Assembly (NCBI GenBank): GCA_016201205.1
Contig: JACQDF010000235.1
Location: 1-34,415, forward strand
Length of the DNA: 34,415 nt
Origin: Acidobacteriota bacterium
GTDB taxonomy: Bacteria > Acidobacteriota > Terriglobia > Bryobacterales > Bryobacteraceae
Direction of reading: 5' to 3'
The translations under genes were made by a program, and so were the position numbers. The notes below the pieces were generated by a model. It was given only the letters and a program-made list of their open reading frames with translations, ran no database searches and was not told where the DNA came from. Positions 9,539 through 34,415 of the stretch are shown piece by piece (the first letter of the stretch is position 1; every line of letters begins with the position of its first letter).

Positions 9539-10072
9539 ATGCGCAAGCCGTTGTACGGATTGATAGCGGAGTTCGCCGCGCCCGAACAACTGGTGTATGC
9601 GGCCGGGGAAGCGCACTCGGAGGGCTATCGGAAGATGGATGCCTATTCCCCGCTGCCCATCGAGGAATTGCATCACGTCATGCACATCCCGGATACCAAG
9701 CTGCCGCGTTTCGTGCTGGCCGCCGGCCTGCTGGGGTCCATCGGCGGCTTCGGGCTGCTCTACTGGATCACGGTGATCAACTACCCTCACAACGTGGGGG
9801 GACGGCCGCTCAATAGCTGGCCCCAGTACATTCCGATCACGTTTGAAACGACGGTGCTGCTGGCGGGTCTGACGACGCTGGTCACCATGATCGCGCTGTG
9901 CGGTCTTCCGATGCCGTACCATCCGGTGTTCAATGTGCCGCGATTCAGGCTCGCGTCGCGAGACCGGTTTTTCCTCTGCATCGAAGCCGAGGATCCCAGA
10001 TTCGACCTGCAGCGGACCAGGCAGTTTCTGGAATCGCTGCACCCGCACGAAGTGACGGAGGTGGAGATTTGA
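9539..10072 (+). CDS. actD: Alternative complex III subunit D (DUF3341)
   Basis: A 177-residue protein with a soluble N-terminal part (MRKPLYGLIAEFAAPEQLVYA) and two transmembrane hairpin helices around residues 60-85 and 100-120, followed by a conserved tail ending HPHEVTEVEI. This is the DUF3341 family found as ActD in ACIII, where it clasps the membrane subunits. The start ATG at 9539 is fixed by a perfect AGGAGG at 9522-9527, although the frame is open further upstream inside actC. The stop TGA (10070-10072) overlaps the TTG start of actE. Confidence 0.92.
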   Translation: MRKPLYGLIAEFAAPEQLVYAAGEAHSEGYRKMDAYSPLPIEELHHVMHIPDTKLPRFVLAAGLLGSIGGFGLLYWITVINYPHNVGGRPLNSWPQYIPITFETTVLLAGLTTLVTMIALCGLPMPYHPVFNVPRFRLASRDRFFLCIEAEDPRFDLQRTRQFLESLHPHEVTEVEI

Positions 10073-10764
10073 GGATCCCATTTCTGCTTCTTCTGAGGAA
10101 CACGCGCAAAACGGACCGCGCCCGCGGCAGCGACACTCCGGTGTTCCTCAAGGCTATGGCGCCGCGGGGCGCGGCCTTTGCGCTATTGGGCGCACTGGCG
10201 CTGACAGGCTGCCGCCAGGACATGCACGACCAGCCGCGCTACCGTCCCTTTGCGGCCACGGACTTCTTCGGTGACCGGCGCGCGTCGAGGCCGGCCATCC
10301 CGGGCACGGTCGCCCGAGGCATGCTCAAGACCGACACCGGTTACTGGACGGGCAAGGCGGCGGGCAAGGAAGTCGAGCGGTATCCCCTCCCGCTGACAAG
10401 AGAAGTTCTGGAGCGCGGCCGCGACCGGTTCAACATTTATTGCCAGCCGTGCCACGGCGCCGCCGGTTACGGCAACGGCATTATCGTCACACGCGGGCTG
10501 AAGAATCCGCCGTCCTACCACACCGATGCCCTGAGGGAAGCGCCTATCGGCCACTTCGTGGACGTCATGACCAACGGCAGCGGCTCGATGCTCAGTTACG
10601 CCTCGCGCGTTCCCGTGCGCGACCGCTGGGCGATCGCGGCCTATATTCGCGTGCTGCAACAAAGCCAGAACGTCAAAGCCGGCGATCTGTCAGCCGAAGA
10701 GCGGCAGAAAGTGAACGCTCCGGAAGCGAGAGCCGCCGAACCGAAGAAGGAGGCTGCCCACTGA
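10069..10764 (+). CDS. actE: Alternative complex III subunit E, monohaem cytochrome c lipoprotein with repeat-interrupted signal peptide
   Basis: A monohaem cytochrome c of ACIII with one CQPCH motif followed by GAAGYGNG, and a distal methionine probably in the NGSGSMLSY segment. The best start is TTG at 10069, because GGAGGTGGAG lies 7 bp upstream and TTGA overlaps the actD stop. It would begin MRIPFLLLL, but a 90-bp dispersed repeat (10095-10184) then adds 30 charged residues before the hydrophobic stretch ALLGALALTGC, whose last cysteine is a lipobox. An ATG at 10156, inside the repeat, would give MAPRGAAFALLGALALTGC, also a plausible lipoprotein signal but without a good ribosome site. 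The mature cytochrome looks intact on either start. The stop overlaps the actF ATG by one base. Confidence 0.88.
   Translation: MRIPFLLLLRNTRKTDRARGSDTPVFLKAMAPRGAAFALLGALALTGCRQDMHDQPRYRPFAATDFFGDRRASRPAIPGTVARGMLKTDTGYWTGKAAGKEVERYPLPLTREVLERGRDRFNIYCQPCHGAAGYGNGIIVTRGLKNPPSYHTDALREAPIGHFVDVMTNGSGSMLSYASRVPVRDRWAIAAYIRVLQQSQNVKAGDLSAEERQKVNAPEARAAEPKKEAAH
10095..10184 (+). repeat. In-frame copy of the 93-bp dispersed repeat, inside the actE signal peptide
   Basis: This 90-bp segment matches, on the opposite strand, the tandem units at 34248-34415 (about 83 of 90 positions by hand alignment). It contains the inverted repeat GAGGAACAC (10095-10103) and GTGTTCCTC (10141-10149), then a second GC-rich hairpin with arms AAGGC and GCCTT. 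It adds exactly 30 codons. Flanking bases read CTTCTTCT before and ATTGGGCGCA after, and fusing them gives an uninterrupted signal peptide. No transposase and no clear target-site duplication are visible. Confidence 0.85.
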
Positions 10765-34247: not shown

Positions 34248-34415
34248 GTTCCTCCAAAGCGCAAAGGCCGCGGCCCGCGGCGCCAAGCCGTTGAGGAACA
34301 CCGGAGTGTCCCTGTCGCGGGCGCGGTCCGTTTTGCGCGTGTTCCTCCAAAGCGCAAAGGCCGCGCCACGCGGCGCCAGGCCCTTGAGGAACACCGGAGT
34401 GTTCCTGCCGCGGGC
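34248..34415 (-). repeat. Tandem 93-bp repeat array running off the right edge
   Basis: GTTCCTCCAAAGCGCAAAGG recurs at 34248 and 34341, a period of 93 bp; the second unit is cut by the window end. Each unit holds the inverted repeat GAGGAACAC/GTGTTCCTC and a GC hairpin with AAGGC-type arms. The minus strand corresponds to the coding sense of the actE copy (10095-10184). Both strands have a long open frame through the array because 93 is a multiple of three and stops are absent. The stretch 34153-34247 before it holds nothing else I can identify. Confidence 0.88.

Follow-up and report, generated by a model that had tools for sequence, protein, structure and literature searches.

A dispersed palindromic element that probably inserted in frame into the signal peptide of an acidobacterial actE-like gene

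Described palindromic elements and the unit in the host genome

Short repeated units that lie in or beside genes are known from several bacterial groups. In mycobacteria, MIRUs occur as tandem arrays and as scattered units, close to the points in operons where one gene stops and the next starts, and the RU-1 unit of enterobacteria is also named ERIC. In the available portion of one report, RU-2 and RU-1 are described as maintaining open frames in annotated genes (PMC2759123), and in that of another, YPAL is described as not A+T-rich, with internal inverted repeats and target duplications of 3-26 bp (PMC2229807). Closest to the case studied here are two further systems. The accessible parts of three papers present the Rickettsia palindromic elements (RPE) as dispersed palindromes that lie in frame in unrelated genes and add a peptide to their products (PMC10969869, PMC2229807, PMC3733652). 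The intragenic REPs (GTAG/CGTC) of Opitutus, Thauera and Rickettsia are, in the text available to us, palindromes located in ORFs, singly or grouped, which add amino acids, and REP termini often give stop codons to flanking ORFs (PMC3733652).

We analyzed a stretch of DNA from an Acidobacteriota bacterium of the Bryobacteraceae (contig JACQDF010000235.1 of assembly GCA_016201205.1; 34,415 nt, hereafter the window), in which the first-pass annotation had described a 90-bp unit at 10095-10184, shared with the right end of the window and inserted as a palindromic element into a signal peptide. The repeat is real, with different limits: the body of the element is 88 bp (10095..10182, plus strand), and it is flanked by the target-repeat copies CTTCT (10090..10094, plus strand) and CTATT (10183..10187, plus strand), which match at three of five positions. 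An 88-bp body and a 5-bp duplication give a net insertion of 93 bp, i.e., 31 codons, and with its duplicated target this is the net insertion in actE. The right end of the window is, as proposed, made of the same repeat, and forms a tandem array with a complete second copy (34260..34347, minus strand) and, 93 bp from it, a third copy cut by the contig end (34353..34415, minus strand).

Using a core 24-mer with up to three mismatches, we found 76 copies in the 7.0-Mb host genome, 56 of them exact, which divide into 38 forward and 38 reverse; the reversed-pattern control gave 0 and 0, and the repeat number is far beyond chance. When all 76 places were examined, the right end was found in 69, where the body measures 88 bp in 63, 87 bp in 3, 89 bp in 2 and 98 bp in 1, and it was not found in the other 7. 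Tandem neighbours are spaced 93 bp apart in all five pairs of this genome. Contigs C143, C160, C175 and C72, as well as the window at 34353-34415, end inside or near element repeats; the repeats break the assembly, and because contigs end there the copy number is probably underestimated. At one locus (L091), copies near 2530 and 5034, 2.5 kb apart, have flanks that are alike on both sides, as if a segment carrying the element had been duplicated. Short forms of approximately 41-51 bp, in which the outer stem is kept and the middle is absent, are present at L258, L262, L260, L263 and L109 (minus strand). Target-primed copying, which would account for 5'-truncated copies with a constant right end, was considered and set aside, since 3'-truncated copies exist too and the searches were not symmetrical.

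The bases upstream of the copies are CTTYT-like, and those downstream are CT(T). Among 100 non-tandem sites from the host and related genomes, 22 have the same pentamer on the left and on the right (expected 10; 0 of 5000 shuffles), and 17 are flanked by repeats of at least 7 nt (expected 5.5; 0 of 300 shuffles). With the 20 sites that adjoin a repeat of a second family (family B, see below) removed, identical pentamers are present in 19 of 80 sites (expected 6.8) and repeats of at least 7 nt in 13 of 80 (expected 2.8), each with 0 of 500 shuffles. A column-by-column test for a 5-bp duplication at 56 sites of the host genome gave one clear column (10 of 2000 shuffles), the others being weak. 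Since the pentamers differ in 78 of the 100 sites, and since the repeat in actE is imperfect, the target duplications are short, variable or decayed. For both of the insertions that we tried in congener G003 (L217 and L215), the corresponding site is empty in each of G009, G010 and G011, and the overlap is 5 bp. For example, the empty sites of G010 read aattCTTCTAAGGTCAC and aaaCTTCGAAGCAAC, and in G003 the same two sequences are interrupted by the element, which is flanked on either side by CTTCT or CTTCG. As judged from these aligned sites, the element has inserted at both G003 positions with a 5-bp duplication.

The copy in actE and copies in other genes

The copy described above lies in an actE-like monoheme cytochrome c gene (10069..10764, plus strand; PF13442), which we presume to be actE from gene order and weak NCBIfam matches. 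Its reading frame is open from 10069 to 10764 and passes from a TTG start through the insertion, with a lipobox, LTGC, after the insert. The ribosome site and start reported in the first-pass annotation (10058..10071, plus strand) are present: GGAGGTGGAG stands just before TTG 10069, and this TTG overlaps the actD stop TGA at 10070-10072. The actD/actE junction of G003 (locus L125) has the same GGAGGTGGAGATTTGAGG, with ribosome site and TTG kept, and therefore the TTG start of actE is probably ancestral. Read from this TTG, the protein begins with MRIPFLLLL, continues with approximately 30 foreign charged residues and then with LGALALTGC, with the left target copy falling inside Leu codons of the signal peptide and frame 0 of the element giving a hydrophilic peptide that ends in AAFA. 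The insert-bearing product keeps a hydrophobic stretch and lipobox (RGAAFALLGALALTGC), in that the run AAFALLGALAL and LTGC remain, the first four residues of this run coming from the 3' end of the element. The claim that removal of the insert restores a lipoprotein signal held in kind and failed in detail: removing the 31 codons gives MRIPFLLLLGALALTGC, not MRIPFLLLLLGALALTGC, and both peptides are lipoprotein-like by eye.

ActE homologues from named organisms place the host probably in the Bryobacterales (Acidobacteriota). We searched 11 congeners for ActE; 3 gave no close ActE, and all 8 in which the N-terminus was read (G001, G003, G005 and G007-G011) lack the insert, with, e.g., (L)RYVFLIAGGLTLLGCRQDMHD in G003. 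These empty sites in close relatives, together with the dispersal of the repeat, bear out the proposal that a palindromic element inserted here in frame. Neither observation that the first-pass annotation had named as contrary to it, the same 30 residues in relatives from distant genera or a repeat confined to actE and the right-end array, was made. In the available text of the ACIII structure paper, an ActE lipobox is placed at Leu21-Cys24 and a lipoprotein is suggested (PMC5928083), and the putative lipobox of the insert-bearing ActE agrees with this. Insertion may also have led to loss of ActE function. The element supplies an in-frame ATG (10156..10158, plus strand), as had been noted; it is typical of one element sequence type (GGCTATGG), the other common type having GGCTTGG. 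That this ATG rescues the insertion is a possibility that appears unneeded, because read-through from the native TTG would keep the hydrophobic stretch and lipobox, and upstream of the ATG there is only AAGG, two bases away.

In an alignment of 46 of 53 thinned copies, the element has a conserved imperfect hairpin of 17 pairs with two doubly compensated pairs, and its 5' and 3' arms lie in the actE copy at 10104..10127 and 10162..10183 (both plus strand). Cells changed on both sides number 39 against 16.9 in shuffles, and the covariation score is likewise above shuffles (0 of 500 for both); counted by pairs, two-sided changes do not exceed the shuffled level (113 of 500 shuffles attain the observed count), and the two compensated pairs mostly set the copies of the host genome apart from the rest. 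The 5' tail AGGAACAC (10096..10103, plus strand) is complementary to an internal GTGTTCCT (10141..10148, plus strand) that is well conserved in aligned copies, and the two are paired in 89% of cells; some copies of the second family have GAGGAACTC/GAGTTCCTC. When 29 covariance-match loci were scanned, the tail pattern was present in 18, one of them the host's own, and both sides were present in 8 of the other 17 (5 T-A, 2 A-A and 1 A-G), which is too thin a support to claim a pseudoknot of tail, stem and internal segment. Rfam 15 gave no match above the gathering score in 10 sources. The host consensus is without a stop in frame 0 and in frame 2, and of 16 representative units, which are related sequences and not independent trials, 14 are open in frame 0 and 13 are open in frame 2. 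Because the minus frames of these units are often stop-free too, the open frames may just reflect G+C-rich DNA.

Copies also lie in frame inside other genes, among them a LysE transporter and a CoA-transferase. In the LysE gene of the host, two in-frame units are present where all four congeners with a match show a gap of 63 residues, which we read as two units plus one extra codon. In a CoA-transferase III of the host, the copy is in frame 2, and matches to the homologues (26-39% identical) leave a gap that opens at query residues 162-173 and closes at 201-204. Further host candidates are an FG-GAP/ASPIC protein, a multihaem cytochrome (with the copy in reverse orientation), a PQQ dehydrogenase with three units at its N-terminus (and a contig end just upstream) and a membrane protein with a weak glycosyltransferase match below cut-off. 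In other species the candidates are an EamA transporter of G002, an NHL-repeat protein of G006 and, from G004, a pair of ORFs: no family matches one of these significantly, and the family match of the other falls elsewhere in the ORF. These in-ORF candidates were filtered with Pfam and a codon model trained on 334 kb of loci from the host genome, and for many other copies no coding frame runs consistently through the element. Taken together, our comparisons show, at the level of sequence, dispersal, empty sites, target duplication and preservation of the frame in actE and LysE.

The element also meets gene ends: at 17 of 105 sites a stop codon spans the junction after a coding-like ORF, and 14 of these 17 ORFs end in Phe. 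This is because the target CTTYTRA is read in frame 1, and such genes stay intact; for example, the gamma-glutamyltranspeptidase before one junction stop is complete (2-512 of 512), and several Phe-stop ends resemble the ends of outer-membrane barrels (FALKLVF-stop). At L078 (24-214), at the right end of L082 and at the start of L356, copies run, by eye, into Leu-rich, signal-peptide-like starts. Signal peptides may be a favoured target through their Leu-Leu codons, CTTCT.

Relatives, candidate enzymes and competing explanations

Congeners G002, G003, G004, G006, G009 and G010 contain subfamilies of their own, with approximately 74-79% identity, and relatives of the element are present in G025 and G027, of other genera; congeners G001, G005, G007, G008 and G011 gave no match at E 0.01. 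A covariance model, run with strict filters and at most 16 candidates scored per genome, matched in at least 16 genomes, counting the host, among 250 of the class, and 15 of those belong to the same bacterial family. The body is 88 bp in 44 of the 60 copies of relatives with a right end, and the 10 tandem pairs of relatives closer than 200 bp are spaced by 93 bp in 7 cases and by 94, 95 (the second member being of family B) and 148 bp in the rest. G265 and G274 again show steps of 93 bp, and the steps are 77 in G186 and 81 in G078. Among the matches listed outside the host, 70 of 134 have the 98-nt length (an 88-bp body together with its repeats). Genus g25 has this length in only 3 of the 37 matches listed, most being shorter, and 19 of these 37 would have a net insertion divisible by three. 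The matches in the g25 genomes (G137, G145, G186, G242 and G289), mostly approximately 80-87 nt with repeats, make up a separate length class. The 93-bp insertion is common, not universal. At one apparently orthologous site (L257, L261 and L220), two units are present in G010 and one in G009 and G003, apparently a change in copy number. The second family, family B, has the same plan with another stem (CTCGCACA and TGTGCGAG) and is often directly beside the 93-bp element, at L066, L069, L077, L088 and L095 in the host genome and at L156 and L221 in congeners; L359 and L369 look like a second-family body with a first-family right end.

No gene mobilising the element was found in the Y1 loci and right-end places that we examined. 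Y1_Tnp matches are present in 13 of the 15 genomes searched, three of them, all weak, in the host. We examined 30 loci from 39 matches listed (the weakest host match, C202, was left out), with flanks of up to 1.5 kb on each side, and none has the element core beside the Y1 gene, i.e., none shows the Y1 gene flanked by the repeat that characterizes REP/RAYT; the flanks contain just two 11-base look-alikes, each with one mismatch. In G002, a class-3-like Y1 HUH protein (NHVH and YVVEEQ; L213, 1314-1821) is flanked on both sides, by eye, by a repeat of another kind, and a script found no perfect stems of at least 8 around this gene; a shortened, HVH-bearing relative is present in the host genome (L193, 1299-1710). 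A right-end pattern search for an autonomous partner gave 104 matches against 28 in the reversed control, so that approximately a quarter may be chance, and 20 right-end places proved to be chance matches or copies that were full but diverged, truncated or chimeric, with no transposon recognized by eye. The inverted repeats of the element are subterminal and offset.

Our preferred reading, to which we give a probability of roughly 0.85, is that the actE segment is one copy of a mobile element that is non-autonomous, forms a hairpin, is dispersed in the host and several relatives, and is frame-tolerant by its usual length and target. Such an element would insert at CTTYT/RAG-like sites and duplicate approximately 5 bp, an 88-bp copy adding 93 bp. 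In frame 0, with Leu-Leu codons at the target, or in frame 2, a gene would gain 31 residues, or 62 or 93 if the insertion is in tandem; in frame 1 the target TTY-TRA would be a codon followed by a stop, and insertion at a gene end would leave the stop in place. In actE, the element would have struck the Leu-rich signal peptide at CTTCT, and translation of ActE would start at the native TTG and give the protein a long, charged n-region, with AAFALLGALALTGC still directing export and lipidation. If translation passes through the element, ActE peptides would be expected from NTRKTDRARGSDTPVFLK. The element was presumably moved in trans by some enzyme.

Several other readings of the same data were weighed. 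The actE copy may be untranslated, with a start at ATG 10156 giving MAPRGAAFALLGALALTGC and the element forming a new leader between actD and actE; this ATG yields a compact, lipoprotein-like signal in the correct frame, and many N-terminal REPs may, in the available part of that study, fall outside the translated part (Di Nocera et al. 2013, PMC3733652). We consider such a leader rather unlikely, given that the native TTG and its ribosome site are preserved and match those of G003, that the ATG is preceded only by AAGG, two bases away, and that other copies are in gene interiors, as in LysE, where only read-through works. A REP-type element moved as single-stranded DNA by a Y1 (HUH) transposase would fit the hairpin with its 5' tail, the one-sided architecture, the many copies and the wide occurrence of Y1_Tnp matches; one study (Quentin et al. 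2018, PMC6006769) also reports, for Solibacter usitatus, approximately 600 copies of structures that are associated with class 3 and have a CnGA foot. CTGA is present in CTTCTGAGG-type junctions, though 7 nt before the stem. This explanation is unlikely, a little more so than the leader, in view of the examined Y1 loci, the different repeat around the class-3-like gene of G002, and the presence of a target duplication, which IS200/IS605-type insertion is not known to make.

An old, immobile tandem repeat spread by recombination and gene conversion would account for the arrays with exact 93-bp spacing and for the site at which G010 has two units where G009 and G003 have one; it is already disfavoured by the empty sites, and the single copies at unrelated sites, with target duplication, make it very improbable. 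Mis-assembly, with a repeat wrongly joined into actE, is if anything less probable still: the assembly is a draft in 392 contigs, and element repeats lie at or close to the ends of several, but the actE copy is internal, with both flanks belonging to the right gene and in frame, and related elements are present inside ORFs of separately assembled congeners.

Comparison with described elements

The element is short, non-coding, present in many copies and associated with target-site duplication, features that it shares with MITEs. The foot of REPs and REPINs (GTAG/CGTC or CnGA) is absent at the stem, where GCGCAAA is preceded by the tail RAGGAACAC, with CTGA 7 nt off in some junctions. Like the intragenic REPs, as far as the portions of text available describe them, the element places palindromes in ORFs, adds residues and forms stops at junctions; unlike REPs, which are 20-40 bp with a GTAG or CGTC tag, it is 88 bp long, has a tail of 9 nt ahead of the stem and duplicates its target. 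It also differs from YPAL, RU-2 and RU-1, as described in the available text, in length, sequence, the usual 93-bp insertion, target and hosts.

In the accessible parts of the literature on palindromic or interspersed elements in Acidobacteria, Solibacter and Bryobacter, and on RPE-type insertions, we did not recognize the element. Repeat finding in S. usitatus is mentioned in the available portion of one paper (PMC3174227), and an earlier partial sighting among the class-3-linked structures of that species is possible (PMC6006769, from the part available). In-frame RPEs and REPs are already known, and the acidobacterial unit, target and hosts appear to be undescribed in the available text of the literature searched.

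A more tentative idea, and one that we regard as rather unlikely, is that selection has made the element innocuous to genes whichever frame it enters; we rate it lower because lengths vary in genus g25 and the minus frames are often open. If true, the 31-codon insertion (in several genera), the stop-free frames and the CTTYTRAG-like target would allow entry into signal peptides, membrane proteins and gene ends, with proteins staying functional and the element donating 31-residue peptides across a bacterial family. Its copies affect the annotation of signal peptides and gene starts in the Acidobacteriota group that carries it.

The best-known in-frame palindromic insertions are those of intracellular Rickettsia, and whether such insertions serve generally as a source of new protein sequence is a standing question. 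Here we describe a family in the Acidobacteriota with a defined unit and target, empty sites and in-gene tandem multiples, so that frame tolerance, rate and fitness cost become measurable by comparing close genomes. The likeness to Rickettsia elements drawn by the first-pass annotation holds at the level of action, in-frame peptide insertions in unrelated genes. As with RPE, the acidobacterial element lies in frame within protein-coding genes, as seen for actE and LysE against empty congeners and for the CoA-transferase against homologues. Unlike RPE, it is found in another phylum, is G+C-rich, has a 93-bp unit and exact tandem multiples in genes, and it has a CTTYT-like target with empty sites.
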